The notes beneath the pieces are model-generated. The model made no database searches and was not told the origin of the DNA. It was given only the letters and a program-made list of their open reading frames with translations. The translations under genes were made by a program, and so were the position numbers. 64,000 nucleotides of DNA. Source: Methanosarcina barkeri MS. GTDB taxonomy: Archaea > Halobacteriota > Methanosarcinia > Methanosarcinales > Methanosarcinaceae. Location of the stretch: assembly GCF_000970025.1 (NCBI RefSeq), contig NZ_CP009528.1:1289168-1353167 (forward strand). Direction: 5' to 3'. Below, piece by piece: positions 6,777-55,231 of this stretch. Position 1 is the stretch's first letter. Each line of letters begins with the position of its first letter.

Positions 6777-6847
6777 ACTCTTAAAAAGGGTTGAAAATTA
6801 AAGAAGTTTTGAACTCAAACTTTAAAACGGAAGGGAAACTGATTCGT

Positions 6848-9301: not shown

Positions 9302-9873
9302 GAGCAATCGCTAGGCCAATAGCTGAATGCTAATTTATCAACCACGGATTAAGTAATTAGGTATACTATAAAACCGATAGTGGACTCATTTGTACAATCC
9401 TCCGCCGGGATACAGAAGCAGGAGAACCTTGATGGCGTCAGAACCTGAAATCTATTGAAAGGTCTCTCCTGCAATTAAACAGTCACTTCTCAGAAAGGAC
9501 TAACGAATAAGCTCAGTCTCATTTTATTCATCCGACTGACATACTTTAATTGAGGTTCTGCCATTTTCTTGAAAATTCCTTATTTTTTAATAATGAGCTG
9601 ATCCCAAAACTCAAAATTGCTTCTCTGAATCCTGTATTCCGAATAATCAATCAAGTTTCTGATCATGAAAACAATCCTGAAAATTCTTGATGATTAAGAA
9701 CGAAATGACTTTTGGGATAGGCTCAATATTAGATAATAACGTCTATTTTACAAAAAACTTGGTTAACGTAGTTTATATTCAATTCAATGAAATATTGGGT
9801 TTTATTTTTATTCTTCTGTTGTATTCTCAATATCAACCTTACTTGAGTGTTATTTACTGGCGTTTTATCTTTT
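9302..9873. other. Intergenic region, no gene recognised
   Basis: The first 65 bases resemble the 3' flank of small ORF A. About 9388-9500 is less AT-rich and may be a decayed coding fragment, but no family could be read from any frame. A 68-codon frame at 9687-9893 has no ribosome binding site and runs into the decayed mptE copy, so it is not accepted. Confidence 0.6.
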
Positions 9874-10375
9874 ATCTGAACTTAAAGCAATAATTTCCGA
9901 AAACCTGCCCTTGTCTGCGGAAACGCTCCAGAGCTCAGGAATGATTATTCGAAAGTCAATTTTTGAATTTTGCAGGAATTGCAGTGATGGAGCCGCTGCT
10001 GTACTCATAGCTATGGTATTGTGCTGAGGTCATTTGTACCGACCTTGATGGCAATTCTGAAGCTAACATCGAAAAATAGATACTTGCCTGTAAGCATGGT
10101 TCTACAGTCTGACCCTGCCGTTAGGATATATTTATAAGCTCGAAAAATACGTATCCCGCTTTAAGCACTTTATCGTGACTACCTAAATAAAACCTTTAGG
10201 TAAGGTCTACAATTTTGGAGTTTTCCTTCAGGGCGACCGACTCGTTTTTATTGAAAAGGAGTTCCCGGCAAAAACTGTTAAACTTACTAAATTTGAGTTT
10301 TAGGATTCGAGAGCGAACCTGCTTAAGAAAAAGAAGTCGAAGTGAACGAGATAAGAAATTTAAATGTTGGAACTT
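9874..10375 (+). pseudogene. Decayed second copy of mptE
   Basis: From TTATCTGAACTTAAAGC at about 9874 the DNA follows the intact mptE (6965-7475) with many substitutions, small deletions and stops. Recognisable stretches include CTTGTCTGCGGAAACGCTCC, GGAGCCGCTGCTGTACT, GTACCGACCTTGATGGCAAT and the basic tail AAGAAAAAGAAG. The N-terminal third is absent and no frame stays open. It sits upstream of small ORF C as intact mptE sits upstream of small ORF A, which suggests that an mptE-plus-small-ORF unit was duplicated and the mptE part then decayed. Confidence 0.85.
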
Positions 10376-16565: not shown

Positions 16566-17462
16566 GACAGTAAGTTTTACATGCTGTCTCACAACTCAAC
16601 CTGTTCTCTAAACTTCTTGGTATCCCATAATTTACCGGTTTTCGGGCTTCTACACGTCGTTTTAACGGCATGTATTCAAGGCGGGGGTGTTCACCTTACT
16701 CAAATAAAATGTCTCAAAATTCATAGTAACCATTGGGTCCCATGGATTCTTTGGAGATGTTAGCCTGTTTATGGGGTAATTTGTAGCATCCACGTCAAAA
16801 ACAAAACATATCATGCAATTGTTGATGTGCTATTTTTTGATCTTGTAAGCTGCAGCCAAGAGCAAGCTGCAGCCCATTAGGAGATCTGTCTGGAAGTATC
16901 AGTGTCTCGATTTAGAAAGAGGTTACTTTCGAGATGAAGCTTTTTTACTGAAAATGAGAGTTGTGCGGATCTGGGAATATTTTTGGAATCGATCACTTGA
17001 TACCTCCAAGATATAAATAAACTAAGTTTGTTATATATTTATTGGATATGTTCTACATATTTTAATTTTTACTATTTAGATCTACTTTCGTGGGGTTGAT
17101 TTGCAGGGGTGAAATGAGTATAAGTCCAATATGCAACCATATCAGCATGGTATTCATCGTGCACAACCGTTCAAAAGAGTATATACTAAAGTATACGAAT
17201 TTCAATATCCAAAAAGAGATTGAAGAAGTTTAACCACTTCTGCTTTTAGTCCTCGTTTGTTTTACCGTCCTCGTGGGTTCCGCCTTAGCCGTATTTCTTT
17301 TTGACTGTGATTTTGAGCCGGTTCACCGTTAAAGGTTGGTAGTTGTTGTAATCTTCTGACGGTTAAGCATCATTTTGTCAACAAATTAATAGCCCTATTT
17401 TCCGATCAGTCGAAAAAACTTAATACACTTAGAGATAAATTAAGAAGTTGATAGGGAAACGG
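16566..17462. other. Gene-free region with possible decayed coding pieces
   Basis: Nearly 900 bp without an acceptable gene. About 16,590-16,790 and 17,220-17,340 are less AT-rich than typical spacers and may be remnants of genes, but no family could be read in any frame. AAGCTGCAGCC is directly repeated at about 16,850-16,880. The pilus operon promoter must lie near the right end. Confidence 0.6.
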
Positions 17463-20210
17463 GTGTTTGATTTGAATATAAAGGCAAAACTTCAGGATGC
17501 TGTCAATGCCCTTAATTATGGCAGTCTTTCTGTACCGGACAAAAAAGAAGAAGAAACCTGCTCTTACCGGATAAAGCAGACGAAAAGCCGGAAAACCATT
17601 GTTATCAATTGCAGAGATTGTGATTGTGGGTCTTCCCTTAACGATATCTACTGCAGAAAAAATATTCTCGGCATCCTGCAAAAAGAGGTTAAGGCTGACT
17701 GTCTGGTACTCTCAAGGTTGTATGAGAGAGATTACGAAGGGGAAGCCCTGTCTTTACTTTATACTCTTGCAGGTTTTGAAGGGATCATAACAGCATATGA
17801 AAGCGTGGAAAAAGTGCCCAAAGACTGTACTTTGCCTGAAAAGAAAGCTTGCGAACTGGAGAGAAAAGAGATAATTGCTTCTTTTGCTAAAACCGTAGAA
17901 ACTGATCCTTTAAAAGCCAGGATGGAAATAAAGCGATTTATTCAGGGAAAAATGCTGAATAAAACTTCAGAAAAGGCTACAAGGAAAATTACAGAGAAAG
18001 CTTCAGGACGAACTATTTATAAAATCTCAGAAAAAGTTCCAGAAAAAAGTTTGGAAATTCTTCCGATTTGCAAAGCTTGTTCCGAGCATTTTTATCAGAT
18101 GCTTTATGAAATTGAAGAAAAACTATCCAGTTTTCCTGAAGTTTCTCTTATTAAAAAATCCGAAACTTGGTTTTTATCAAAAAGACCCGTAGAAAATTCT
18201 GAAAAAGGAATTGGTAAGACAATCGAAAAAACAATTGGAAAAGTAACAGGAAGCCTGATAAAGGACACATCAGGAGAAGCAACCCTGGCAAAAATCTCCA
18301 GACATTTTCCGTTTATGGCAAGTGCAATCCGGAAGGAAAAAATGGAGAAAAATAAATACGTTGTGGACGAGCTTTTCGACTACGAAAACGGCATCAGACC
18401 TCATGTTCGACCCCCTTTTTCTAGCTCAAGGGTCTATGCAGATGTGCCTGAAAATACCGAATTTCTTGAGTGCTACGATATAGACAACAGGGAAGGTAGG
18501 AAACTTGAGGTTTCGATTTATCGCTACATTGACAGGCCGGAAAAATTTTACATGATCCGGCCTCCTGAGTATAATCTTAGGGAGGAAGACCTCAAGCTGC
18601 TTGAAAAAGTCCGGATGCGAATGATCCATCACAGGCCAAAAGACCTTGTCTTTACAGATCCGGCTGTAGCCAGGGAATATTTCAGGCGCATGGCAAAAAC
18701 GCTTCTTGAAGAAGAATTGCTCGCAAGTGGGGAAGCCTGTAGCCCTAATGAACTGGAAAGTTATGCTGACCTACTTGCAAGGTATACTAACGGGCTAGGG
18801 ATAGTGGAAGACCTGCTTTCTGATGCCAGGATCACAGATGTATATATCAATGCCCCTGCCGACAAAAATCCTGTCCACGTTGTGCTGGAGGGAGAAGAAT
18901 GCGTAAGCAATGTTTTTCTTTCGCAGGACGACCTCGATGCCTTGGTCTCCAGGTTCAGGATCATCAGCGGCAGGCCCTTTGGAGAAGCGGTTCCTGTGCT
19001 GGAACTTAACCTTGAGGCTTTCGGAGTAAGGGTTTCGGTAATAGGAGACCCTCTCAGTTCAAGTGGGCTTGCCTATGCCTTCCGAAAGCATTCCCTTTCA
19101 CCCTGGACCCTGCCTAAACTGATCAATACAGGTTCGGTTTCTCCATATGCAGCCGGGCTTTTAAGCTTTCTTATGGACGGGCAGGCTTCAGTTCTGGTCG
19201 CAGGAGAAGTTGGGGCCGGAAAAACCTCCCTGCTATCTGCCATGCTGCTTGAGATCCCGCAGAAATACAGGATTCTTACAATTGAAGACACCCCTGAGCT
19301 CCCTATCGAAAAACTTCAGAGTCTGGGCTGGAAAGTTCAGGGTATGAGTTCACAATCCTCAGTTTTGAAATCAGGAGCCGAAATGAGCCCTGAAACAGCG
19401 CTTCGAGCAGCTCTGCGCCTTGGAAATTCCGCCCTGGTGCTTGGAGAAGTCCGGGGGGAAGAAGTAAAAGTACTCTACGAAGCCATGCAGGTCGGAAAAG
19501 CCGGAAACTCGGTTATCGGGACCATTCATGGCTCGTCCACGGTAAACGTATACGAGAGAATCGTGCACACCCTTGGGGTTCCTCCGGCGTCGTTTAAGGC
19601 TACGGACGCCGTAATTATTTGCTCAGGTATAAGGCTTGAGGGCAGCATGAAAAAACTAAAACGAGTGAGCCGTATCGCAGAAACAACCAGTGCCGTGATC
19701 GATAATTCCGAGCCTTCGGATATCTTTACGGACATAATGAAATATGATGCCTCTCAGGACTGCCTGCTTGCAGGAAAGGCTCTGGAACAGGGACAATCCG
19801 AACTTATAGAAAAGATTGCCAGAAAATGGGGAATTTCCATAGATAGGGCTTTAAAAGGTATCGAACTTCGCGCAAGGATAAAAGAAAAAATCGCAGTTGA
19901 AGGGCTAAAAAAACCTTTCCTGCTGGAAGCCGAAGCCGTTAGCCAGGCAAACAACATGTTCTGGCTGCTTTCAGATTCTATGAAGAAAGACAAACCGTAT
20001 GAGAATGAATATGCAAATGGAAATAATTCTTCAAATAATTCTTCAAATAATTCTTCAAATAATTCTGTAGGGAACTCTGCAAATAATCCTGCAGGTAATT
20101 ATGCAGCTGATTCGGAAGCCGGCTGCAGGGACGACATGGAACCTCTTTATAAACAGTGGGAAACCTGGTTTGAGAACTTTGCCAAAAAACGTTCGGGTAC
20201 AGGAAAATAG
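17463..20210 (+). CDS. Type IV pilus/type II secretion ATPase (VirB11/GspE family)
   Basis: Cytoplasmic secretion ATPase that powers assembly of a pilus-like fibre with the downstream membrane protein. About 915 residues. The first about 320 residues are a lineage-specific region with KASGRTIYKISEKVPEKS-like repeats. An N-terminal secretion-ATPase domain follows (FFDYENGIRPHV-like region to about 480), with LLSDARITDVYINAP. The catalytic core has Walker A GEVGAGKTSLL near 580, the Asp box TIEDTPELPI near 605, Walker B ALVLGEVRGEE near 655, and the His box GTIHGSS near 690. The C-terminus has a low-complexity Asn/Ser repeat (about 20024-20075, 12-bp periodic). GTG at 17463 follows AGGGA; a TTG at 17448 is an alternative. 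Confidence 0.9.
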   Translation: MFDLNIKAKLQDAVNALNYGSLSVPDKKEEETCSYRIKQTKSRKTIVINCRDCDCGSSLNDIYCRKNILGILQKEVKADCLVLSRLYERDYEGEALSLLYTLAGFEGIITAYESVEKVPKDCTLPEKKACELERKEIIASFAKTVETDPLKARMEIKRFIQGKMLNKTSEKATRKITEKASGRTIYKISEKVPEKSLEILPICKACSEHFYQMLYEIEEKLSSFPEVSLIKKSETWFLSKRPVENSEKGIGKTIEKTIGKVTGSLIKDTSGEATLAKISRHFPFMASAIRKEKMEKNKYVVDELFDYENGIRPHVRPPFSSSRVYADVPENTEFLECYDIDNREGRKLEVSIYRYIDRPEKFYMIRPPEYNLREEDLKLLEKVRMRMIHHRPKDLVFTDPAVAREYFRRMAKTLLEEELLASGEACSPNELESYADLLARYTNGLGIVEDLLSDARITDVYINAPADKNPVHVVLEGEECVSNVFLSQDDLDALVSRFRIISGRPFGEAVPVLELNLEAFGVRVSVIGDPLSSSGLAYAFRKHSLSPWTLPKLINTGSVSPYAAGLLSFLMDGQASVLVAGEVGAGKTSLLSAMLLEIPQKYRILTIEDTPELPIEKLQSLGWKVQGMSSQSSVLKSGAEMSPETALRAALRLGNSALVLGEVRGEEVKVLYEAMQVGKAGNSVIGTIHGSSTVNVYERIVHTLGVPPASFKATDAVIICSGIRLEGSMKKLKRVSRIAETTSAVIDNSEPSDIFTDIMKYDASQDCLLAGKALEQGQSELIEKIARKWGISIDRALKGIELRARIKEKIAVEGLKKPFLLEAEAVSQANNMFWLLSDSMKKDKPYENEYANGNNSSNNSSNNSSNNSVGNSANNPAGNYAADSEAGCRDDMEPLYKQWETWFENFAKKRSGTGK

Positions 20211-20257
20211 GTGTCAGAGAGGAGTTGTTAGAGAGAAAAGTTGTCAGAGGGAGAAAT

Positions 20258-22198
20258 ATGGAGGAAGAGAGCAACTGGTATGTGCGAGCCTGTAAAATTA
20301 CAGCAAGGCAATGGATATGGGCTGTCTCTGACCCTGCCGCTTTCCGCAGGCGATGCGAAAAGAGCGTAAGCCGGGAATACAGGGACGCCCTCAGGTTTAC
20401 TGGTTATGACCTTGAAGCTTTCGAAACCGTGCTCTTTTCCTATGTGGGAACCTTTGCAACTTTAATCCTGCTGGCCGGAGTAGATCTATTTCTAATCCTT
20501 TCAAGAAGTTTTGATGCCAGAGTACTTACTATAATGGGAGTCCTGACTTTTATCATTCCCCTGCTCGCACTCTATTACCTGAGTGAGTATGTGAAGCTCA
20601 GGGCAGGATTTATGAAAATATCCTCTCTTGGAGACATTCCTGAGATCCTGAGTTATATAGTCATGTCCATGAAACTTGTTCCTAACCTGGAACATGCCGT
20701 GCTTTTTGCTGCCAGGAATTCCGATAGGCCCCTTGCAAAGGACTTGCGAAAACTCGCCTGGGACCTGAACCTCAGGATTTACAGCAGCATGGATGATGCG
20801 CTTCTTTCTTTTGCCGACCTGTGGGGAAGGAATAGCGAATATTTCAAGCGTTCCCTCCACCTTATAAAGAGCTCGACAGCCGAACCTGACGAAGCCCAGA
20901 GGGTTATAACCCTGAACCGTGCCCTGGACATAAGCCTTGAAGGCACGGAAAGTCTTATGGATGCCTTTGCAGCAAAGCTGAAGACCCCAAGTTATATTCT
21001 TTACTCGATATTCATACTGATCCCGCTTGCCCTTGTAGCTCTCCTGCCTGCGGTTACAGTTGTAGGAATAAAACCTGAAATAATAGACCTTATTTTCATT
21101 TACGACCTTATTTTCCCGGCTCTTGCTGCCCTATATTCCGAATATATTCTTATGCAGAGGCCTGTTGCTTTTACTCCCAGGGAAATTCCAGACTCTCATC
21201 CTGACCTTGCAGATATCAAGCAAAAGAAACGCTTTGCTTTAACGCTTTCAGTCCTGGTATTCTGCCTTATAGCGCCTTTAGGATATCTCCTGCTGAGGTT
21301 AGGAAATCCAGGAGGAATAGTTGCAACCGCGCCTCTTGAAGGATATTTTTCACCTACTCTCCCGCTTATTCTGGGTGGAACAATTGGAATTTCAGTATAC
21401 CTCTATTTCTCGGCTGTTCCTTACAAAAAAATAAGAGACCGGATAAAAAAGATGGAACAGGAATTTGCAGATTCCCTTTTTGTGCTCGGGAGGAGAATTT
21501 CGGAAGGAAAAGCACCGGAAGAAGCTTTTGCCCATACTGCCAGGACTATGGAAGGCTCAAAAATCGGAGAAGCTTTTCAGGAAATTTCAATGAACCTACT
21601 CAGTATGCGGACAAACCTCAAAGCTGCAATTTTTGATGAAGATTTCGGAGCCTTCAGGCACGTATATTCAGAAAGAATCCGGAACACAATGCTCCTTTTT
21701 ACGGAAAGTGTCCACAAAAACCATGAAGCTGCAGGTGCCTCGATTATAAAACTTGCAGACCATCTAAAAGAGCTCGGGACAGTTGAAGAACGAATCCGAC
21801 GCTCCCTTTACGACGTTACCTCAACCATGCGCTCTACAGCTGTGATTTTTGCCCCACTCATTGCAGGGATTACCCTTGCCCTATCTGAGGTTATTACGAA
21901 AATTCTGAGCCAGGTAGCCGAAAGGGTAAACCGAATTCCTTCCGACACATCAGGAATGCCTGTTGAAATCGGGCAGGCAGCTTTTTCCCAGTCAATTTCT
22001 CCTGACCATTTCCTGCTTGCAATAGGGGTTTATATTGTCCTGATCAGTGCTATTCTCACCCGCTTTGCAGGTTCGGTGGAATATGGAGGAGACAGGACTC
22101 AGTTGAAATACGACCTCGCCTGCATGCTCCCAATTTCAATTGCGATATTTGCAGTGTCTACTGCAACATCAAGAATTATCTTCAGAGGGCTGGTGTGA
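20258..22198 (+). CDS. Type II secretion/archaeal pilus membrane platform protein (TadC/FlaJ-like)
   Basis: Membrane platform of the pilus/secretion machine, partner of the ATPase 47 bases upstream. About 646 residues, with several transmembrane groups (LILLAGVDLFLILS, MGVLTFIIPLLALYYL, FILIPLALVALLPAVTVVG, FALTLSVLVFCLIAPLGYLLL and three near the C-terminus) and two soluble helical T2SSF-type domains (about 110-230 and 405-510, the second with GRRISEGKAPEEAFAHTA). The ATG at 20258 follows AGAGGGA; an upstream TTG at 20225 is less likely. Truncated or partial copies of its 3' end occur at 27974, 48386 and 49581. Confidence 0.88.
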   Translation: MEEESNWYVRACKITARQWIWAVSDPAAFRRRCEKSVSREYRDALRFTGYDLEAFETVLFSYVGTFATLILLAGVDLFLILSRSFDARVLTIMGVLTFIIPLLALYYLSEYVKLRAGFMKISSLGDIPEILSYIVMSMKLVPNLEHAVLFAARNSDRPLAKDLRKLAWDLNLRIYSSMDDALLSFADLWGRNSEYFKRSLHLIKSSTAEPDEAQRVITLNRALDISLEGTESLMDAFAAKLKTPSYILYSIFILIPLALVALLPAVTVVGIKPEIIDLIFIYDLIFPALAALYSEYILMQRPVAFTPREIPDSHPDLADIKQKKRFALTLSVLVFCLIAPLGYLLLRLGNPGGIVATAPLEGYFSPTLPLILGGTIGISVYLYFSAVPYKKIRDRIKKMEQEFADSLFVLGRRISEGKAPEEAFAHTARTMEGSKIGEAFQEISMNLLSMRTNLKAAIFDEDFGAFRHVYSERIRNTMLLFTESVHKNHEAAGASIIKLADHLKELGTVEERIRRSLYDVTSTMRSTAVIFAPLIAGITLALSEVITKILSQVAERVNRIPSDTSGMPVEIGQAAFSQSISPDHFLLAIGVYIVLISAILTRFAGSVEYGGDRTQLKYDLACMLPISIAIFAVSTATSRIIFRGLV

Positions 22199-22380
22199 AA
22201 TAAGAGTTATAGTAAACTGGTGATTACTGTTCATTCAAGAATTGATCCTAAAGTGTAAATAAAACCGCATTTTATTCCATACGTCTTCGGTTAAGTGAGT
22301 AATCGTGACAAATTGCGTCAATTTCCTCAACATTTGTCAAATATTTTATAAATTACGAGCTGGAGCAGGGTATCGATTTC

Positions 22381-22644: not shown

Positions 22645-23586
22645 TTAAATGAGAGACCAAAAATATGGTAAATCTTGTAAAGCATAACGGGGCTCTGTAG
22701 AAATCCTTAATTTTATGCAAACTATTTCCACTACTTTTTTATTTATATTGTACACTATCAGTTTAATTTTTATTTCTTTGACTTGATTATAGAACTTTCT
22801 TGCTCTTAGTACTTCTCCAAACTTCCTTTTGACAACAGAAAACGTTGTTTCCGCTATGTTCCTTTTATTATATTTGATTTTATCAAAGTTCAAATATAGC
22901 TTTCTTCTGTATTTTCCTCTTACTTTCTTCCTCTTTCTTTTTCTTACAGGCATAATTGAATCTGCTTTAATTTCTTCTCTAATTAGAACATGAATTTTTT
23001 CAGAATCATACCCCTTATCTAGGACGTAACATCCAGATTTTCTTGACTTATTTGATTGTCTTATCAGAGCTTTTGCATGTTTGACATCATGATCTGTTTT
23101 TTGACTGATTTTCCATCCTAATATCACTTTTTTTTCTGTATCTACTGCTATTGAAGTTTTCAGGAAGCTACTTCGGAGCTTCCCTGTTCTTCGAGAGTAA
23201 TAATGACTTGCATAAGAACTCGTAAATCCAGTTGCATCAATTGCTGTAATTGAAGCATTTTCTCCATGTGAATAAAATAGTTTTAGAGTTTTTGACAAAA
23301 TTAGGTTAAACAATGACGAAGGGATTCTTGATACAAACTTTTGAAGAGTAGTGTAATGAGGAACCTTATCAAGGTCAAGTTTTTCTTTTATATTACTCAT
23401 AAGGTCAATAAGTTCGACAAAATCACGATAATCTGTGCTTATATACTCTTTCAGTAAAACAAGAACAAGAAGCTGATGTTGAGTGTAAACACGTTTGGAA
23501 TACTTACATGAGTAAAGGTTCAGTCTGGAAGACTGAACCGTTTTAAGACTGAGATCAATAAATTTAATATACTTATTTGATGACAA
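22645..23586 (-). CDS. IS5-type DDE transposase
   Basis: Catalyses movement of the surrounding insertion sequence. The 313-residue protein has the DDE triad: ITAIDATGF (first Asp), YVLDKGYDSEKIHVL (second Asp), and RNIAETTFSVVKRKFGEVL (Glu within the R-E-K signature of IS5-like transposases). TTG start at 23586, 9 bases after GAGGAG. The reading frame runs through the left inverted repeat (where it encodes RISTEP) and stops 46 bases outside the element, so the last about 15 residues come from flanking DNA. Confidence 0.88.
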   Translation of the reverse strand: MSSNKYIKFIDLSLKTVQSSRLNLYSCKYSKRVYTQHQLLVLVLLKEYISTDYRDFVELIDLMSNIKEKLDLDKVPHYTTLQKFVSRIPSSLFNLILSKTLKLFYSHGENASITAIDATGFTSSYASHYYSRRTGKLRSSFLKTSIAVDTEKKVILGWKISQKTDHDVKHAKALIRQSNKSRKSGCYVLDKGYDSEKIHVLIREEIKADSIMPVRKRKRKKVRGKYRRKLYLNFDKIKYNKRNIAETTFSVVKRKFGEVLRARKFYNQVKEIKIKLIVYNINKKVVEIVCIKLRISTEPRYALQDLPYFWSLI

Positions 23587-24325: not shown

Positions 24326-26716
24326 TTGAAAAGTGAAGAACATATTTTAATAATTATATTATTAATGTTTTCCTTTATATTTTGTGCAGCAACCATGCCA
24401 GTTAAATCTGCACAGAGTGACGTTTTGAAATCCCCTACTGCTGATTTCTTTGCTTTTTTCACTTCTGGTAATGCACCACATACTACAGAATTCATGGATA
24501 AAAGTACAGGAAATCCTACTGATTGGTACTGGGAATTTGGAGATGGAGCTACTTCGACCAAGCGAGATCCAGTACATACGTACCAAGATCCAGGAAGCTA
24601 TACTGTAATACTTACAGCAACTAATGATGCAGGCAGTGATGTGGTAACAAAAGCTGGTTATATTATAGTGAAAGGATCTACAACGAATACAGAGTCCGCA
24701 AAGAATACAGAATCTGTGAAGGATACGGAAACCACAGAAAATATAGAATCTACGGAAAATACAGTACAAGAACCCGTTGCTGATTTCTTTGCTTTTTCCA
24801 CTTCTGGTAATGCACCACATACTACAGAATTCATGGATAAAAGTACAGGAAATCCTACTGATTGGTACTGGGAATTTGGAGATGGAGCTACTTCGACCAA
24901 GCGAGATCCAGTACATACGTACCAAGATCCAGGAAGCTATACTGTAATACTTACAGCAACTAATGATGCTGGCAGTGATGTGGTAACAAAAGCTGGTTAT
25001 ATTATAGTGAAAGGATCTACAACGAATACAGAGTCCACAACGACTACAGAATCCGTGAAGGATACGGAAACCACAGAAAATATAGAATCTACGGAAAATA
25101 CAGTACAAGAACCCGTTGCTGATTTCTTTGCTTTTTTCACTTCTGGTAATGCACCACATACTACAGAATTCATGGATAAAAGTACAGGAAATCCTACTGA
25201 TTGGTACTGGGAATTTGGAGATGGAGCTACTTCGACCAAGCGAGATCCAGTACATACGTACCAAGATCCAGGAAGCTATACAGTAACACTTACGGCAACT
25301 AATGATGCTGGCAGTGACGAGAAAATAAAAGCCAGTTATATAGTAGTAAAAGAATCTGCAACGAATACAGAGTCCACAGTGAATACAGCGGAAAAAACGG
25401 TTGCCAAGTCTTCTGCATCTTCAAAAGAATCCACAAAGGATATAGAATCCACAACGAATACAGCGGAAAAAACGGTTGCCAAGTCTTCTGCATCTTCAAA
25501 AGAATCCACAAAGGATACAAAAATAAGCGCAAGCAAAATTGTTTCATTAAGTTATCTTCAAGTAGCAGCTGAAACTGACCCCGCAAGATCTCAGGGCAAA
25601 ACAACTCCTGGAGCTACTGATTCTGTGAAAATTGTTGAAGCCGCTTTGGTCGAGGAAGGATATCTCGATGATACCTATGCACATGATGGAGCTTACGGAT
25701 CCGCTACAATCAATGCTTATAAAAAATGGCAGGAGTCGTTAGGTTCCCCAGCAAAATATTGTGACGGAGTACCAGGAAAGACAGATTTGACCAAGCTTGG
25801 TAATAAGTATGGATTTACAGTGGATGCATCTACAGTCTCAGACTTTTATCTATATCGCTCAGAGGAAGATACTACAAAACTTAATAATGCAGATAGTAAC
25901 AAGGAAACAACACCCAAATATACAAAAGTGACAAAAAGTAATCAGGATTCATTATTAAAACCATCAAGCGCATCCAAAGTTGATACCTCGTCTAAGGTTT
26001 ATTCTGAACCAGATGTAAGAGTAGTCAGTGCAAAGCTAGATAGTTCCAGAGAATACATTGAAGTAGATTACTATTTAAAATCTGATTTTTATTCAAATAG
26101 TCGCACAGGCACTTCTTTTTCAATTGGCTACAAATTTAATAATCCACAAATAAACAGAGTTTTTGAAAATGAATTTGTAGATATTAATCAACCCAAAGGA
26201 CATTATGTGGCAAAAATACCATATCCAGGGATTAACTTTGTGGATAAAGAACCAATGTCGGGGATTATTGCCAAAGTAACTATTTACACCCATTATACAA
26301 CAGCATTTGGTAGAGACGGAAATGACCACTATAGAGCAAAGGGAATAACATTATCTACAGCACCAACTGGAAAACCATATGTTAGTGATCCTCATGTAGT
26401 TGATAGGTTCGACGTAGCAAAGGGATTTGTCATATCAAAAGCTACAGGAATTGGTATAGCTCTTTATTCTAAAATACCGAATGTAAAAAAATTAGGCATA
26501 TTATTGACCGTGTTTGGAGAGTATAAAGATATAGATGAAAAATTTGGATTAAATACAGCGCCTCCCGATCTTTCGGTAGGTCAAATCATTCAAACCACTA
26601 CCTGGTTTGATGATGATAATGGGTACGAAAACATAAAGATGTGGCAAAATCAGGAGGCTTTTGATAACCACTTAACGCCTATATATGATGCTAACATCTC
26701 TTGGCCTGTTCCATAA
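24326..26716 (+). CDS. Secreted surface protein with three near-identical PKD domains
   Basis: 796 residues. The start has a signal peptide (IILLMFSFIFCAATMPVKSA). Three PKD domains follow, each with ADFFAFxTSGNAPHTTEFMDKS, WYWEFGDGATS, HTYQDPGSYTV and linker repeats rich in Thr/Glu/Ser (TNTES, KDTETTENIEST). Next comes a shorter EKTVAKSSASSKESTKD repeat, a peptidoglycan-binding-like helical domain (VKIVEAALVEEGYLDD...YGSATINAYKKWQES) at about 435-505, and an unrecognised C-terminal region of about 250 residues. No membrane anchor or sorting tail is seen at the C-terminus. Likely exported to the cell surface; binding target unknown. The start codon at 24326 is TTG, following AGGGGTG. Confidence 0.85.
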   Translation: MKSEEHILIIILLMFSFIFCAATMPVKSAQSDVLKSPTADFFAFFTSGNAPHTTEFMDKSTGNPTDWYWEFGDGATSTKRDPVHTYQDPGSYTVILTATNDAGSDVVTKAGYIIVKGSTTNTESAKNTESVKDTETTENIESTENTVQEPVADFFAFSTSGNAPHTTEFMDKSTGNPTDWYWEFGDGATSTKRDPVHTYQDPGSYTVILTATNDAGSDVVTKAGYIIVKGSTTNTESTTTTESVKDTETTENIESTENTVQEPVADFFAFFTSGNAPHTTEFMDKSTGNPTDWYWEFGDGATSTKRDPVHTYQDPGSYTVTLTATNDAGSDEKIKASYIVVKESATNTESTVNTAEKTVAKSSASSKESTKDIESTTNTAEKTVAKSSASSKESTKDTKISASKIVSLSYLQVAAETDPARSQGKTTPGATDSVKIVEAALVEEGYLDDTYAHDGAYGSATINAYKKWQESLGSPAKYCDGVPGKTDLTKLGNKYGFTVDASTVSDFYLYRSEEDTTKLNNADSNKETTPKYTKVTKSNQDSLLKPSSASKVDTSSKVYSEPDVRVVSAKLDSSREYIEVDYYLKSDFYSNSRTGTSFSIGYKFNNPQINRVFENEFVDINQPKGHYVAKIPYPGINFVDKEPMSGIIAKVTIYTHYTTAFGRDGNDHYRAKGITLSTAPTGKPYVSDPHVVDRFDVAKGFVISKATGIGIALYSKIPNVKKLGILLTVFGEYKDIDEKFGLNTAPPDLSVGQIIQTTTWFDDDNGYENIKMWQNQEAFDNHLTPIYDANISWPVP
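24440..25372 (+). repeat. 339-bp tandem repeat encoding PKD domain plus linker, three copies
   Basis: The coding sequence GCTGATTTCTTTGCTTTT recurs at 24440, 24779 and 25118, an exact period of 339 bp (113 codons). Copies are nearly identical at the DNA level, including synonymous positions. This points to recent duplication or ongoing homogenisation, and copy number may vary between strains. Confidence 0.9.
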
Positions 26717-27973: not shown

Positions 27974-28676
27974 TTCGGAAGGAAAGGCCCCGGAAGAAGC
28001 CTTTGCCCATACTGCCAGGACTATGGAAGGCTCAAAAATCGGGGAAGCTTTTCAGGAAATTTCAATGAACCTGCTCAGTATGAGGACAAACCTCAAAGCT
28101 GCAATTTTTGATGAAGATTTCGGAGCCTTCAGGCACGTATATTCGGAAAGAATCCGAAACACAATGCTCCTTTTTACGGAAAGTGTCCACAAAAACCATG
28201 AAGCTGCAGGCGCCTCGATTATAAAGCTTGCAGACCATCTAAAAGAGCTCGGGACAGTCGAGGAACGAATCCGGCGCTCCCTTTACGACGTCACCTCAAC
28301 CATGCGCTCCACGGCTGTGATTTTTGCTCCACTCATTGCAGGGATTACCCTTGCCCTGTCTGAGGTTATTACGAAAATTCTGAGCCAGGTAGCTGAAAGG
28401 GTAAACCGAATTCCTGCCGATATGTCAGGAATGCCTGTTGAAATCGGGCAGGCAGCATTTTCCCAGTCAATTTCTCCGGACCATTTCCTGCTTGCAATAG
28501 GGATTTACATTGTCCTGATCAGTGCTATCCTTACTCGCTTTGCAGGTTCGGTGGAATATGGAGGAGACCGGACGCAGTTGAAATATGATCTGGCCTGCAT
28601 GCTCCCAATTTCAATTGCGATATTTGCAGTTTCTACCGCAACCTCAAGGATTATCTTCAGGGGGTTGGTGTGAAAT
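27974..28676 (+). pseudogene. 5'-truncated copy of the pilus membrane platform gene
   Basis: Begins abruptly inside the second T2SSF domain (TCGGAAGGAAAGGCCCCGGA) and follows the intact gene (21496-22198) to its stop and about 65 bases beyond. Over the 216 codons after the first Met I count only three amino-acid differences (Ser to Ala, Thr to Met, Val to Ile) but over thirty synonymous ones. So this is the end of a once functional, diverged allele and not a freshly duplicated or long-decaying piece. It faces a truncated copy of the secreted-protein gene at 28768. Confidence 0.9.
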
Positions 28677-29147
28677 AAGAGTTATAGTAAACTGGTGATT
28701 ACTATCCATTCAAAAACTGATTTCAAAGCAAGAACTGATTTCAAAGCGCAAATAAAAGAAAGGGGCTTTAATTACCCCCAAAAAAATTAAAAGTTATATT
28801 CGACAAATTTGCATTCCTAAAATCGAACCAGTACTGTTCTATCGTATTGACAATACCTTGATTATTCACAGTATTGGCAGATCCATTTACAATATTCTGT
28901 GCTCCAGAGTCATTTATTTCAACAGGCTGTGTACTGTCTGAATCTGGCATCACAGGATCGGTTGTCTGTTCAGATGCATCCCCAAAATAACTTTTTACAA
29001 TGTTATAACTAGTAACTCCCATAATTCCACAGTCAAACTTCTTGGAAGATCCCCAGTCTTTATACGACATGGTTTTATTCTTGTTATAAAAGGCTGTTAC
29101 TTCCTTCCGTTGGGGTCCGAACCATCTATAGTATGCCTCATATCGTA
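28550..29147. repeat. Left arm of a roughly 600-bp inverted repeat (partner at 49130-49700)
   Basis: End of the pilus membrane gene, intergenic strip and end of the secreted-protein gene occur here in one orientation and at about 49130-49700 in the opposite one. The strips AATAAGAGTTATAGTAAACT and AGAAAGGGGCTTTAATTACC are shared exactly. About 20 kb lies between the arms. Confidence 0.85.
28768..29147 (-). pseudogene. 5'-truncated copy of the secreted-protein gene at 48845
   Basis: The minus strand encodes the last about 125 residues of the protein at 48845-49501 (for example GSSKKFDCGIMGVTSYNIVK, NTVNNQGIVNTIEQYW, NITFNFFGGN) with few changes and an open frame, but the signal peptide and N-terminal half are missing. 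It converges on the truncated pilus gene copy, mirroring the arrangement at 49.1-49.7 kb. Confidence 0.88.
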
Positions 29148-29441
29148 TCCTCTTTATATTGAGTGAGTAAAAGTAAATTTCATGTATTTACTGAAAATTT
29201 AAAAATTTAATTAAATTTGAGAAACAACCTTAAGCGATGTACTCAACTTTATAACTGTATGATTAAATTGTTGTGCATTTTTCAAGTTGGAAAATTCTCC
29301 ATTCAATTTGAAGAGAATACATAAAAAGTAATGAAAAAAGTTAATTGTAATGGAATGAGGCTTTTTTCTCAGTAGATTCTATTTAATACAAGAGGTAAAT
29401 GCCCTGGAAAGTCCAGAGCATTCGAAACTCTCAATTTAAGT

Positions 29442-32387: not shown

Positions 32388-32659
32388 CAAACTAAATATA
32401 ATACTTTAATTAAAATAACCTACTAATTAAAATAATACTTTAATTAAAATAACCTACTAATTAAAATAATACTTTAATTAAAATAACCTACTAATTAAAA
32501 TAATACTTTAATTAAAATAACCTACTAATTAAAATAATACTTTAATTAAAATAACCTACTAATTAAAATAATACTTTAATTAAAATAACCTACTAATTAA
32601 AATAACCTACTAATTAAAATAACCTACTAATTAAAATAATACTTTAATTAAAATAATTG
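32388..32659. repeat. 17/34-bp AT-rich minisatellite
   Basis: Two 17-bp half-units, TAATACTTTAATTAAAA and TAACCTACTAATTAAAA, alternate to make a 34-bp period. Six complete 34-bp periods start at 32401, 32435, 32469, 32503, 32537 and 32571; then the second half-unit is repeated alone and a partial copy closes the array. No spacer variation, so not a CRISPR. Confidence 0.95.
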
Positions 32660-43916: not shown

Positions 43917-44071
43917 TGGTAAAAATTACAGGTAAAAATTACAGGTAAAAATTACAGGTAAAAATTACAGGTAAAAATTACAGGTAAAAATTACAGGTAA
44001 AAATTACAGGTAAAAATTACAGGTAAAAATTACAGGTAAAAATTACAGGTAAAAATTACAGGTAAAAATTA
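43917..44071. repeat. 13-bp minisatellite after the Cdc48-type gene, about 12 copies
   Basis: Unit AGGTAAAAATTAC repeated without a mismatch for most of its length. The last codons and stop of the upstream gene read GGTTACAGGTAAAA (43872-43885), which is nearly one repeat unit, so the array probably grew out of the gene's own end. Confidence 0.95.
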
Positions 44072-44222
44072 CGGTAAGAATTTAATCCAGTAACTCTTTA
44101 GAAGATTAGTTTTAAAAGGAAAAAGTTTTAAAGATCCTGGTTTCAAATGGAATAAAATATTCAAAGTGGAAATCAAGCTTTACCCAAACCGATAATATAC
44201 TGCCAACGGAGATACGATCAAA

Positions 44223-45153: not shown

Positions 45154-45276
45154 TGCCATGATTAGATTTGAACGGTGAAAAGCAAACGATGGAAAGTAAG
45201 CGACAAAAAATACATGAAATTCTTCTAATTACAGACACAAAGAAATGAAAGTACTTGATAGAATTTTCATGCCAAA

Positions 45277-45510
45277 CGCATATGATATTCTTTGGATAAC
45301 TGGCACAAAGAAATTAAAGTACTTTTCACTTCACACTTTATAGGCTATCTATTTCGTCATTAACTTAGGTAGTCAGGTTGTCCGAACTATGGTTTTTCAA
45401 ACCATTGCTAAACTAATCAGTGAATTGTCATACAAGGCTTAAATTTGATAAGGAGCAGAGACTCAACAGGGGCATTGGGAGCCAGTTTTGTTCCGTACTT
45501 TCATGCTAAA
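45277..45510 (+). repeat. Dispersed noncoding repeat, copy 1 (partner at 54892-55127)
   Basis: Begins AAACGCATATGATATTCTT and continues through CACAAAGAAATTAAAGTACT, TTTTTCAAACCATTGCTAAA, CTAATCAGTGAATTGTCATA, GATAAGGAGCAG and GGGAGCCAGTTTTG. The same order occurs at 54892-55127 in the same orientation with about one change in ten. The part AGACACAAAGAAATGAAAGT also appears just outside at 45232. No coding frame; perhaps the end of a mobile element. Confidence 0.8.
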
Positions 45511-45905: not shown

Positions 45906-48236
45906 ATGAAAATCAAATGCAAGTTATGTTCAATAGCTTTAACTTCAACAGTATTAGTTTTTATATTTTTAGCTTTAATTTCAACTTTAGCATCAGCGGC
46001 ACAGGTGACGAAAATTGGTAGTGGGTCTGATCCTGCTATTTATGGTAACAAAGTAGTATGGACAAATAGTGGTGTTATAAAGGTTTATGATTTGACCGCC
46101 AGAACAGTCACTACAGTTAATTCTTCTGCAGCATCTTATCCGGCTATTTACGGCAATATATTAGTGTGGCATGACGAAAGCAGCAAGACGCCAAGGCTTG
46201 CAGTATACGACATGTCAACAGCCGCAAAAACTTACATTACACAGAATGTAGATCAATCCAGCAGACCTGCCATTTATGGCAATAGGATCGTTTGGAGTGC
46301 AGATTACAATGAATCAAATTACAATTACAACGTATATATGCGTGATATCTCAACTTCCAAACAAACTAAAATTGCAAATGGAAACAGTCCTGACATATAC
46401 GATACCAGGATAACATATGGTTACGAGGATGCAGATGGGAGAACCATAGCTGTTTACGATATTAATACTAAGGAAACTATAAATGTACACTCTTCTAGCC
46501 AGATATTTAGTCCCCATATATATGGTAATAAAGTGATATGGTCAAACTTCTATTCCAGGGACGGATTTATTGAAATGTATGACCTTATTACCAAAAAAAC
46601 CATAGATGTTACCAGTGATAATACAGGTAATACTTTATATGGACCTGATGTCATAGCTGATGCGGGAGATGACACAGGTACTCATATTGACATAAACGGA
46701 GACAAAATCGTATATTCAAAATCTGGCGATGACCAGTTTGGTTATGCAGGTGTATACGTTTATGATATTCCTTCAGCAAAAAGCACTCCAGTTTACATTT
46801 ATCCAAAAGAAACTTACACTACACCGGACGTGTACGAGAACACTATTGTATGGGGAATAGATAGTAACTATGGCAGGGGGGAGACTGAAGATAGCGACAA
46901 TAATGGTATCTATTTAAGTGATCTTTCTGCCATAAACTCCCTACTACAGGTAGCTGAATTTACTGCCAATGTAACTTCCGGAACTGCACCTTTAGTTGTG
47001 TTATTTACTGCCAACGGTATTGATGGAGGTTCGGCTTCATGGCTCTGGGATTTTGGGGACGGAATTACCTCTAAACATGAAATGAAGGCAACGCACACAT
47101 TTACCAAACCTGGCACATATGACGTTACTTTAAAGGTAACCGGTGCCACTGGCAATATTTCTATAGATAAACTGGGTTACATTAGGGTCACGAATTCTAC
47201 TACTCCAGACCTGGGGATTCCGGTTGCAAACTTCAGTAGCAGCGTTATCGAGGGGTATGCTCCCCTAACGGTACAGTTTACTGATCTTTCTCAGAATGCA
47301 GTCTCAAGGGTATGGGACTTTGATTCTGACGGAAAGGCTGACTCCAGTGACCCGAATCCCATTTATATATATTCAACCCCTGGTACATATTTCGTTAACC
47401 TGACAATCTATAATGCAAACGGTTTCTCTTACCTTATTAATACAATAACTGTACTGGAAAGCAATTCCAGCGACGACAGTAACTCAAGCAGTGACGGAAA
47501 CAGCAAGAGCGGTGGTAGCAAAAGCAGCGGTAGCAAAAGCAGTGGTAGCGGAGGAGGAGGTGGCTCTCCTGAGCCTGCAAAAAACATTGAAGTAAAGGAA
47601 CTTTCACAGGTGTTCATTACAAATGGAAAAGAGGTAAAATTTGATTTTACTAAGAATGCAACCTGCGTTGTTTCTGTGAACTTTGATGCAAAAAAGACTC
47701 TGGGTAAAACCACAACCATTGTAGAGATGTTGAAAGGAAAATCTTCCCTGGTTTCCGAACTGCCTTCTGGAGAGGTCTACAAATCCTTTAATGTTTGGGT
47801 TGGGAATGGCGGAATTGCAACCTCAAAGAACGTAGAAAACCCGACCGTTTGTTTCAAGGTTGAAAAATCCTGGATAGAGAATAAAAAGATCGATCCAGCT
47901 TCAATCACCCTTAACAGTTATAGCGAGAAAAAATGGGGGCAGCTGGAGGTAGAAACATCCGGAAAAGATGATAAATTCCTGTATTTCACGGCAAAAACTC
48001 CGGAATTCTCTTCCTTTGCAATAACAGGCACAGCAAAAAAAATCTCTGATGAAACTGTGACAGAATCCCAGCCTGAGACAGAGATAGGAGCAGTTAATAA
48101 TAATGTAAACGAAAACGAGACTGGGAACGAAGGAATGGAAGCTGAACAAAAAGAAATTCAGGGTACGTCTGGATTTGAAATAGGCTTAGGAATAGCTTGT
48201 ATCCTTGGCTTATTCCTTTATAAGCGGAAGCACTAA
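45906..48236 (+). CDS. Surface protein: beta-propeller, two PKD domains, PGF-pre-PGF region and sorting tail
   Basis: 776 residues. A signal peptide (STVLVFIFLALISTLASAA) is followed by a propeller of at least six repeats of the DPAIYGNKVVWTN type (about 30-350). Two PKD domains follow (about 355-430 with WLWDFGDGITSKHEM; 440-520 with VWDFDSDGKADSSDPNP), then a Ser/Gly linker, a PGF-pre-PGF domain (SQVFITNGKEVKFDFTKNAT to KTPEFSSFAITG, about 560-720), an acidic spacer and a C-terminal SGFEIGLGIACILGLFLYKR, then KH, which resembles a sorting/anchor signal. A TATATA at 45844 and GGGGGAGGGG before the ATG suit strong expression. Likely an adhesin or envelope component. Confidence 0.88.
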   Translation: MKIKCKLCSIALTSTVLVFIFLALISTLASAAQVTKIGSGSDPAIYGNKVVWTNSGVIKVYDLTARTVTTVNSSAASYPAIYGNILVWHDESSKTPRLAVYDMSTAAKTYITQNVDQSSRPAIYGNRIVWSADYNESNYNYNVYMRDISTSKQTKIANGNSPDIYDTRITYGYEDADGRTIAVYDINTKETINVHSSSQIFSPHIYGNKVIWSNFYSRDGFIEMYDLITKKTIDVTSDNTGNTLYGPDVIADAGDDTGTHIDINGDKIVYSKSGDDQFGYAGVYVYDIPSAKSTPVYIYPKETYTTPDVYENTIVWGIDSNYGRGETEDSDNNGIYLSDLSAINSLLQVAEFTANVTSGTAPLVVLFTANGIDGGSASWLWDFGDGITSKHEMKATHTFTKPGTYDVTLKVTGATGNISIDKLGYIRVTNSTTPDLGIPVANFSSSVIEGYAPLTVQFTDLSQNAVSRVWDFDSDGKADSSDPNPIYIYSTPGTYFVNLTIYNANGFSYLINTITVLESNSSDDSNSSSDGNSKSGGSKSSGSKSSGSGGGGGSPEPAKNIEVKELSQVFITNGKEVKFDFTKNATCVVSVNFDAKKTLGKTTTIVEMLKGKSSLVSELPSGEVYKSFNVWVGNGGIATSKNVENPTVCFKVEKSWIENKKIDPASITLNSYSEKKWGQLEVETSGKDDKFLYFTAKTPEFSSFAITGTAKKISDETVTESQPETEIGAVNNNVNENETGNEGMEAEQKEIQGTSGFEIGLGIACILGLFLYKRKH

Positions 48237-48554
48237 AGCAGAATTCCAAAATTCGATATGTAAACAACAGATGAGAGGATTAACCTCTCTTTTTTTCTTT
48301 ACTCTTCTTTACTCTTCCTTACTCTTCCCCATTTTTCCTTATTCTTTCCATGTTTTTCCAATTTTATCTCATTTTACTAATTTTATACCAATTCCCTTAA
48401 GATAATTCTTAATGTCGTGGTAGACACTGCAAATATCACAATTTAAATTAGGAGCATGCAGGCCAGGTCTTATTTTAATTGCGTCCTGTTTTTCAGGATG
48501 GAAATATAGTTTTTCCTTCATGCTTAAATGGATATGAATTAAGAGAAAAGTATG
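48237..48554. other. Spacer with pyrimidine-rich terminator and one 129-bp repeat
   Basis: A CTTTACTCTTC-type pyrimidine run (about 48283-48340) follows the surface-protein gene and probably ends its transcript. The copy of the pilus-gene end at 48386-48514 follows. No gene. Confidence 0.6.
48386..48514 (-). repeat. 129-bp repeat derived from the end of the pilus membrane gene, left copy
   Basis: On the minus strand this matches the last about 35 codons of the gene ending at 22198 (LACMLP, TSRIIFRGLV region), with many changes. It runs parallel to the copy at 49581-49709, also 129 bp long, and both continue into the same non-gene sequence (TTTCAGGATG, AAATATAGTTTTT). The two copies enclose the secreted-protein gene. 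Confidence 0.85.
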
Positions 48555-48847
48555 TGAGAAATTAAGTGAATCGGATGAAGCAGGTAATCAATCCAAGGAA
48601 GTAATCAACGAAAGTAATGAATCTAAACATATTTATAAAGCTTTATGTGATATTATTAGAAGTTACGAAGGTTCAATGACCTGCCCAAAAAAGAATGTGC
48701 TGATGTTCTTAGTGAGTATCTTGAGAATAATGGATGGGATACCAGTGTTGAAGTAAAGACCTTCGTAGATTATGGTACAAGAGAGTATGCAGTTATTGAC
48801 ATTGATGATGAAGGTGAAGTATATGCTATTATGGAGAATTGGCTATG
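48555..48847 (+). pseudogene. Frameshifted small gene overlapping the next start
   Basis: One frame reads KVCEKLSESDEAGNQSKEVI, then KALCDIIRSYEGS; a second frame continues LPKKECADVLSEYLENNGWD, then YAVIDIDDEGEVYAIMENWL and a stop that overlaps the next ATG (ATGA at 48845). The split near 48675-48690 suggests a frameshift. The second part looks like a small conserved hydrophilic protein, but I do not recognise it. The ATGA overlap suggests it was once translationally coupled to the secreted protein. Confidence 0.45.
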
Positions 48848-49501
48848 AAACTTAAACTACTAAGTATTCTTTTTGTTGCTATGCTCGCAATTCCATCGGC
48901 TTCAGCTACGGAAAATTATGTAACTCCTACAAAAGAGCAAGTCACCCAGATCATGCTTGATTACAACCTCAGCAGCCAAAACAATTCCTATCAACTAGCC
49001 TGCGAAATCGGTCAATATGTTTCAGAAGAGTATAGTTGGAATTGTGATATAAGAGAACTTAATTTCACAAAACATGCTCCGATTTATATCAATGTCTTCT
49101 ATCCAGCAGCCGATAATAATAAAGGATATGAGGCATACTATGGCTGGTTCGGACCCCAACGGAAGGAAGTAACGGCCTTTTATGACAAGAATAAAACCAT
49201 GTGGTATAAAGACTGGGGATCTTCTAAGAAGTTTGACTGTGGTATTATTGGGGTTACTAGTTATAACATTGTGAAAAGTTATTTTGGGGATGCATCTGAA
49301 CAGACAACAGAACCTGTGCCGCCAGATTCAGACAGTACACAGCCTATTGAGAAGAATGACTCTGGAGTACAGAATATTGTAAATGGATCTGCCAATACTG
49401 TGAATAATCAAGGTATTATCAATACGATAGAACAGTACTGGTTCGATTTTAGGAATGCAAATTTGTCGAATATAACTTTTAATTTTTTCGGGGGTAATTA
49501 A
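48845..49501 (+). CDS. Secreted hypothetical protein
   Basis: About 218 residues. Signal peptide MKLKLLSILFVAMLAIPSAS. The mature part includes TPTKEQVTQIMLDYNL, transglutaminase/lysozyme-like CDIRELNFTKHAPIYINVFY, WFGPQRKEVTAFYDKNKTMW, and a C-terminal NTVNNQGIINTIEQYWFDFR, ending NITFNFFGGN. No family recognised. The ATG at 48845 lies 8 bases after GGAG; a TTG two codons earlier is not preferred. It lies between two 129-bp direct repeats, and a truncated copy exists at 28768-29147. Confidence 0.7.
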   Translation: MKLKLLSILFVAMLAIPSASATENYVTPTKEQVTQIMLDYNLSSQNNSYQLACEIGQYVSEEYSWNCDIRELNFTKHAPIYINVFYPAADNNKGYEAYYGWFGPQRKEVTAFYDKNKTMWYKDWGSSKKFDCGIIGVTSYNIVKSYFGDASEQTTEPVPPDSDSTQPIEKNDSGVQNIVNGSANTVNNQGIINTIEQYWFDFRNANLSNITFNFFGGN

Positions 49502-49709
49502 AGCCCCTTTCTTTTATTTGCGCTTTAGAACCATTTCTTGAATGGATAGTAATCACCAGTTTACTATAACTCTTATTTCATACCAGTCCCCTGAAGATAA
49601 TCCTTGAGGTCGCGGTAGAAACCGCAAATATTGCAGTTGAAATCGGGAGCATGCAGGCCAGGTCGTATTTCAACTATGTCCTGTCTTTCAGGATGAAAAT
49701 ATAGTTTTT
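49130..49709. repeat. Right arm of the roughly 600-bp inverted repeat
   Basis: Inverted relative to 28550-29147. It holds the end of the secreted-protein gene, a shared intergenic strip (49502-49580) and the 129-bp pilus-gene end. Both arms share the strip around AGTTTACTATAACTCTTATT. Confidence 0.85.
49581..49709 (-). repeat. 129-bp repeat derived from the end of the pilus membrane gene, right copy
   Basis: Minus strand encodes the same C-terminus as the gene ending at 22198 (for example ATSRIIFRGLV-like codons, here with a GGACTGGTATGA end). Homology to the pilus gene stops after CCTGTCT; the remaining about 20 bases match only the left 129-bp copy at 48386-48514. Confidence 0.88.
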
Positions 49710-50911: not shown

Positions 50912-51028
50912 CCGTTGATTCGCAATCGTCTAACCGGTTTATCACACCGCTGCATGGGATTTTCGATCAAGTCTTTTTTGAAAAGGCTTGCAAGCAAACA
51001 GTTTTTTGAAAAGGCTTGGAGGTAAAAA
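50912..51028 (+). repeat. Dispersed palindromic intergenic repeat, copy 4
   Basis: Hairpin 50968-50990 (CAAGTCTTTT with AAAAGGCTTG, one G-T pair), preceded by CCGGTTTATCACACCG and followed by the AAGCAAACAG tail and a second AAAAGGCTTGG. The last bases, GGAGGT (51017-51022), form the ribosome binding site of engB, so the repeat now contributes to that gene's translation start. Confidence 0.85.
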
Positions 51029-54449: not shown

Positions 54450-55231
54450 TTAAACCATCTCTGCAATCTTGTATTTCTACTAAACACTACAGAATTTTCA
54501 AAAACCTGATATTCTTCGCAGTTTCTCAGCAGTTTAAATTCAACCTTCTGAATTATTAACTGAAATATACATAGTTTTCAGGATGAGGGGGTGATCTATA
54601 ATTATTAATTGTAGTCACAGAATAGAGTAGGCACTTGCAGTTTGTATTGCAAAAGCACAAACGAATACAAAAATTACTACTTTGTAACTAATTTTGTGTT
54701 TATCCAACTGTTTCGCCTCATTTACATTTTGAATCTTTGTGAAAATCTTCTAAGGTTATTATTCACAATTAAGAAAGTGCCAATAACATTATGTAAAAGT
54801 TTACAAAGGCATAATGATATAAACTGTATTCTTTTTAATAAATTTTATTTTTTTAAAAATTATTAATTTCTAAAAAATGTTTTTTACCTAAACGCATATG
54901 ATATTCTTCGAATAATAGACACAAAGAAATGAAAGTACTCTACTTTACCCTTTTTTGACTATTGATCTCGTCATACCCTGGGTAGTAAAGTTGCTCTAAT
55001 TTTGGTTTTTCAAACCATCGCTAAACTAATCAGTGAATTGCCATACAAGACTTAAATATGATAAGGAGCAGAAAATCAAAAGGAGCATTGGGGGCCAGTT
55101 TTGGTCCTTAATTTCATACTAAAGAAAAGATATTTGTTTCCAGCCAAAAAAGACAAAGACTTTAAACTGTACTAAAAAGAATCTTTAAAATTTCATGTGA
55201 TTGCCGCAAAAAGAAACGGCAGCCACCACTA
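54450..55231. other. AT-rich region with the second dispersed-repeat copy
   Basis: No gene accepted. A 74-codon frame near 54642 is Phe/Asn/Lys-rich and lacks a ribosome binding site. The dispersed repeat lies at 54892-55127; the last about 100 bases are the terminator region of the ligase gene. Confidence 0.65.
54892..55127 (+). repeat. Dispersed noncoding repeat, copy 2
   Basis: Same order of blocks as at 45277-45510 (ACGCATATGATATTCTT, CACAAAGAAATGAAAGTACT, TTTTTCAAACCATCGCTAAA, CTAATCAGTGAATTGCCATA, GATAAGGAGCAG, GGGGGCCAGTTTTG) in the same orientation. Both copies lie in accessory DNA. Confidence 0.8.

Follow-up and report, generated by a model that had tools for sequence, protein, structure and literature searches.

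The DNA analysed here (the window) is a stretch of 64,000 nt from Methanosarcina barkeri MS, and all coordinates are window positions unless labelled otherwise. It contains two similar segments, R1 (48377-48514, minus strand) and R2 (49572-49709, minus strand), which enclose an intact gene for a secreted protein and match the 3′ end of a pilus-type gene located elsewhere in the window. The question raised by this locus is how pieces of the end of one gene came to lie on both sides of another, and whether the enclosed segment is an exchangeable cassette, as the preliminary description proposed.

Repeats R1 and R2 and the pilC gene

R1 and R2 each measure 138 bp, have the same orientation and align without gaps at 82.6% identity. 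A BLASTN comparison of the two within the window yielded E = 2e-36, so the similarity is not due to chance. The two repeats of equal length and orientation in the preliminary description are thus confirmed, with coordinates there beginning 9 bp later. Both match, in antisense, the last ~36 codons of an intact gene of 657 aa (20225-22198, plus strand), R1 up to 48489 and R2 up to 49686; beyond these points they share a further ~24 bp (48490-48514 and 49687-49709) that are absent from that gene, in agreement with the ~20 bases noted earlier. The gene is preceded by a T2SSE ATPase gene (17448-20210; Pfam E 5.8e-21) and has a weak match to ArlJ/FlaJ (E 0.03); it is referred to as pilC, a putative assignment derived from this neighbour and this match. 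Its 3′ end appears to be both source and target of the repeats. The pilC end with 66 bp of following DNA (22090-22264, plus strand) matches R2 at 87%, and 22092-22204 matches R1 at 82%.

An additional copy of the pilC end, missed in the preliminary description, is found at 27974-28721 (plus strand). It is truncated at its 5′ side, 748 bp long and 94% identical to pilC; its part 28565-28721 is likewise matched in antisense by the repeats. Between pilC and this second end are located an IS5-family transposase gene (22645-23586, minus strand; Pfam, NCBIfam) and an ORF for a secreted protein with a PKD domain (24326-26716, plus strand; Pfam), the latter regarded as cargo. When the genome of the strain (4.57 Mb, two contigs) was searched with the R2 region, four matches were obtained, all of them inside the window, and a genome-wide repeat or insertion sequence was rejected. 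The preliminary description had held that a genome with no further repeats of this type would speak against its reading; this applies only in the sense that all four copies lie in the window.

The secreted-protein gene (48845-49501, plus strand; ATG at 48845, stop codon at 49501) encodes 218 aa, for which a Pfam search found no family at E 0.1. It is 87-92% identical in five relatives, and with dN/dS values of 0.08-0.28 in all 15 pairs it is, as judged from these ratios, under purifying selection. It is preceded by the degraded, frameshifted relic of a small gene (about 48540-48844, plus strand). In all four relatives where this small gene occurs (G003, G004, G025 and G027), it is likewise broken. 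The earlier account of a frameshifted small gene and an intact secreted-protein gene between the repeats was therefore correct. The secreted-protein gene has a second copy, truncated and broken with two internal TAA codons (28754-29144, minus strand), which adjoins the 748-bp pilC end. On the other side of R1 lies the gene of a PKD/beta-propeller surface protein of 776 aa (45906-48236, plus strand), which synteny identifies as the probable original neighbour of the pilC end in genomes of the G005 type.

Two functional readings of the repeats were considered. An alternative frame of R1 and R2 is open, but the changes between them fall on pilC codon positions 1, 2 and 3 in numbers of 5, 8 and 11, which fits the pilC frame, and the start codon is lost in G004; a small protein encoded by the repeats was rejected. 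It is also very improbable that the repeats act as antisense or terminator elements following surface-protein genes and are maintained for the regulation of pilC. They do lie in antisense behind a surface-protein and a secreted-protein gene, but they contain stop codons in the pilC frame, R1 has diverged from its G004 counterpart (90% identity) as much as the whole block (89.9%), and the pilC end has no unusual synonymous conservation. Synonymous divergence of pilC is 0.36-0.45 in the last 40 codons versus 0.30-0.50 elsewhere, which gives no signal of functional constraint on the 3′ end.

Other repeats in the window comprise a direct repeat of ~237 bp with 82.7% identity (45274-45510 and 54890-55123), tandem repeat arrays at 32390-32656 and 44000-44090, and a copy of 6974-7360, a fragment of the gene at 6791-7480, located ~2.5 kb downstream in the same orientation (9872-10249; 77.5%). 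This last fragment possibly has a history similar to that of the pilC end, at another gene.

The pilC locus in other Methanosarcina genomes

Thirty genomes of the genus were searched, and pilC orthologs were found in 24 of them, with no match in G012, G014, G015, G016, G020 and G023. An iterated profile of the pilC 3′ end was then used to scan the 22 genomes (the window and 21 others) with a fetched pilC region, G018 and G026 being left out because their pilC lies at a contig edge. Extra copies of the pilC end were detected in 13 of the 22, namely the genome of the strain itself, G001, G003, G004, G006, G007, G008, G009, G011, G019, G022, G025 and G027, and none in the other nine (G002, G005, G010, G013, G017, G021, G024, G028 and G029). 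G007 carries two additional copies ~50 kb away, and those of G011 are situated on other contigs. A scan of 111 genomes showed two similar fragments in other genera of the family (G034 and G051).

The DNA between the copies differs from genome to genome and encodes the secreted protein, PKD/beta-propeller proteins or a HepT/MNT pair. A full secreted-protein gene is present downstream of pilC, on the opposite strand, in G003, G004, G025, G027 and G029; G025 has both R1 and R2, G004, G003 and G027 have R1 only, and G029 has neither. Strains with a single repeat, and different genes between copies of the pilC end, had both been named in the preliminary description as evidence to be sought, and invariance of the locus as evidence against its reading; the locus does vary among the genomes compared, which represent one per species. 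Two kinds of intervening gene deserve separate mention: an NB-ARC/TPR protein of 1039 aa, possibly a defence-type protein, between pilC and the secreted-protein gene of G004 (L017 4900-8019), and a HepT-like/nucleotidyltransferase pair between pilC and the displaced pilC end of G001 (L050 12608-13275).

Occupied loci can be compared with loci free of repeats. In G004 the order is pilC, NB-ARC/TPR gene, secreted-protein gene, R1 and PKD/beta-propeller gene, while in G005 the PKD/beta-propeller gene directly follows pilC. Because R1 of G004 together with its flank aligns with the pilC end and flank of G005 over 2.6 kb (73%), R1 is best read as the original pilC end. Similarly, R1 of G025 and G003 aligns with the pilC flank of G013 and G002, and the repeat of G019 with that of G010. 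Behind pilC, 440 bp are common to G010 and three other genomes (G007, G009 and G022); G010 may itself have lost a repeat. On its right side R1 is followed by the PKD/beta-propeller gene in the window and G004 versus another flank in G003, G025 and G027, with the same cargo in both cases; the secreted-protein cargo may have entered more than one background, with a deletion as the alternative.

A series of three genomes argues for repeated insertion at the pilC end, each event leaving behind a displaced end. G019 has the order pilC-TolB(-)-repeat. G006 has pilC-TolB(+)-repeat-TolB(-)-repeat, in which the segment repeat-TolB(-) aligns with pilC end-TolB(-) of G019, and G001 has pilC-HepT/MNT-repeat-TolB(-), which aligns with pilC-TolB(-) of G019. 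Furthermore, identity to pilC decreases with distance in all three arrays having at least two displaced copies (94, 87 and 82% in the window in its un-inverted order; 84 and 80% in G025; 77 and 76% in G006).

The reference to an un-inverted order follows from the comparison of six genomes. Homologs of the leftward gene at ~29313 and of the rightward DHH gene at ~49706 adjoin in G004, G029, G003, G028 and G001 (in G027, the two were on separate contigs or not found together), whereas in the window they are kept apart by the segment 29313-49705, which is inverted relative to these five genomes. With the inversion undone, the window reads pilC ... truncated secreted-protein gene / R2 - secreted-protein gene - R1 - PKD/beta-propeller gene, which is the order of G004 and G025. 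Gene order in the relatives thus shows that a ~20-kb inversion moved the block of R2, secreted-protein gene, R1 and surface-protein gene away from pilC. A dispersed repeat of ~176 bp, found many times in G004 and G029, occupies the left breakpoint (29145-29320). Another dispersed repeat, ~60 bp in length (about 50955-51018), has dozens of copies in related genomes.

Proposed insertion boundaries and search for a recombinase

The left boundaries of the displaced ends were determined by a profile-based fit on a scale on which 0 is 3 bp after the pilC stop codon; displaced ends differing in their upstream arm were counted as separate classes (n=10), and pilC of G013, G021 and G024 (broken, divergent or partial) was left out here and in the swap test described below. 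Six of the ten classes have their boundary at -104 to -115, i.e., they start within 12 bp of each other; the remaining four begin at -85, -123, -142 and -237, and the 748-bp copy of the window at about -705 (the fit gave scores below 0 for G003 and both copies of G006). The probability of such a cluster under uniform placement is 0.0003-0.01; treating two classes that share their right flank as one raises it to 0.003-0.05. In this calculation, the value of -85 for the G006/G008 class is taken from G008 and the 748-bp copy is omitted. Among the 78 pairs formed by 13 left arms of 60 bp, strong matches were confined to the secreted-protein family (the R1 orthologs and R2 of the window) and to G006-G008; five other pairs reached an uncorrected p of 0.02-0.05, which is about chance level. 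A common origin of the left arms was rejected, the different classes being unrelated beyond chance. Clustered starts next to unrelated DNA suggest a preferred insertion point.

A pilC end replaced by an incoming one might be recognizable as a mosaic. In G025 and G027, pilC has no difference from -204 to -105 and then 14 differences, which is striking by eye. The change-point test, restricted to pairs with third-position divergence up to 0.36, gave an uncorrected p < 0.05 in four of 71 pairs, at -309, -147, -105 and -195; only one of these points (G025-G027, at -105) is at the expected place, and the swap is not statistically supported.

In the 24 genomes where pilC was matched, neither a tyrosine recombinase (up to 90 kb from pilC, or along its contig) nor an integron integrase beside the pilC array was found, and in 13 genomes no serine recombinase was found near pilC. 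The inserted cargo genes scanned included no recombinase, and viral contigs, plasmids and phages contained no attP-like sequence. A general process of 3′-end duplication was considered as well: in 864 kb of the strain's own genome (504 genes), three downstream direct duplications of 3′ ends, pilC among them, compare with four upstream direct duplications of 5′ ends, and thus there is no excess. This sample gives no indication of a general process, and pilC stands out by its recurrence across the genus. In L108 (864-1728), the 3′ end of an ORF (163 bp, 82%) is repeated ~3.4 kb downstream.

Proposed mode of accretion and comparison with known systems

Comparative alignment establishes the homology of the copies, the occurrence of empty and occupied sites, the stacking and the inversion, and accretion of cargo and displaced ends at the pilC 3′ end is well supported. 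We propose that incoming DNA would bring cargo and a pilC end of its own, by which the resident gene is completed, while the old resident end, most often its last ~100-112 bp, would be pushed downstream and then decay; we infer that every event inserted DNA and replaced the gene end. Repeated events would stack cargo and dead pilC ends, the youngest nearest to pilC. In the window, R1 would represent the original and oldest displaced end, moved on entry of the secreted-protein cargo, with the shared ~24 bp as the left arm of the insert; R2, with the same arm, would be a later displaced end, as would 27974-28721, the youngest, and the block carrying R1 and R2 would have been carried off by the inversion afterwards. 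By analogy with prophage e14 at icd, the repeated start point would reflect a site-specific recombination step, catalysed by an enzyme that acts in trans or has meanwhile been lost. The joint model, in which the pilC 3′ end is a recurrent and polarised insertion point in Methanosarcina and which includes the site-specific step, has in our judgement an even chance of being correct. The preliminary idea of an exchangeable slot holds in that the slot is variable; the slot is the pilC end, however, and not a symmetric cassette bounded by R1 and R2, which are displaced ends. Loss or amplification by recombination between the repeats, also envisaged there, is possible, as R1 and R2 share the left arm that a duplication would give.

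The main rival explains the same accretion by homology-facilitated illegitimate recombination, in which one side of DNA from another Methanosarcina pairs with pilC and the other side is joined illegitimately within the resident pilC end. The two models predict the same product and differ in the position of the junctions and in the need for a dedicated enzyme. That no recombinase was found near the pilC end fits the rival, as do the junctions elsewhere in four of the ten classes and the nature of the cargo, which resembles the genes, mostly for surface proteins, that normally follow pilC in other species; PMC5361080 proposes this route for the stacked immunity genes of Vibrio cholerae type VI secretion (T6SS) loci. 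Random joining, however, predicts no cluster such as that of the six classes with unrelated arms that start within 12 bp, and we regard this route as a tentative possibility. A plain duplication, in which the secreted-protein unit was doubled through unequal crossing-over of R1 with the pilC end and the remaining features arose by deletion, would dispense with any special insertion process. The shared left arm of R1 and R2 and the second, truncated secreted-protein copy are in its favour, and the R1-R2 pair itself may be explained in this way. It accounts for R2 but not for R1, and it fails for the unrelated cargo in G001, G006, G019, G003, G004 and G025 and for the opposite orientations of the cargo genes in G006; as an account of the pair without a special process it is doubtful.

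In Escherichia coli, e14 integrates within the protein gene icd at its 3′ end, leaving an old end of 163 bp (PMC6379469), with identity blocks of up to ~250 bp (PMC10111431). The likeness to the pilC site is that the insert supplies the replacement gene end, the old end lies as a direct repeat at the far side, and uninterrupted targets exist in relatives (here G005, G013, G002 and G010, which are empty or repeat-free). The pilC site differs in that no integrase is encoded in or near the inserts, the cargo comprises one or few genes, several start points exist and decayed ends are stacked. Sequential displacement was proposed for the T6SS arrays of V. cholerae in PMC5361080, and T6SS effector-immunity arrays and rhs/cdiA orphan ends share with pilC one conserved side that anchors new DNA while old 3′ pieces are pushed downstream. 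The pilC locus likewise has a one-sided homology anchor and an array of displaced ends with the older ones further away (ordered in three of three); in contrast to those arrays, the conserved end of the anchor gene is itself duplicated, the cargo is unrelated to the anchor and the junctions cluster. In an integron cassette array, unrelated genes are added in a polarised manner at a single position and are separated by a repeated site. The pilC site resembles it in this polarised addition and intervening repeat; it differs in that no integrase gene lies beside it and in that part of a coding gene serves as the repeated site. A comparison with integrons is also drawn in PMC5361080.

A search of the open-licence literature found no report of an insertion site at the pilC end. 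A bolder and unlikely extension of the proposed model is that a trans-acting system repeatedly stacks unrelated cassettes at the pilC end in a sequence-specific manner, with no resident integrase; the site would then be a functional archaeal analogue of an integron with a piece of a coding gene as attachment site. If this were true, the cassettes stacked at pilC would be surface proteins, a HepT/MNT pair and an NB-ARC/TPR protein. The accretion model would provide a defined, genus-wide locus in methanogens where gene gain can be read as ordered layers, with a predicted attachment point, and its cargo of cell-surface proteins, HepT/MNT pair and NB-ARC/TPR protein may be of the kind that varies under pressure from phages or the community.
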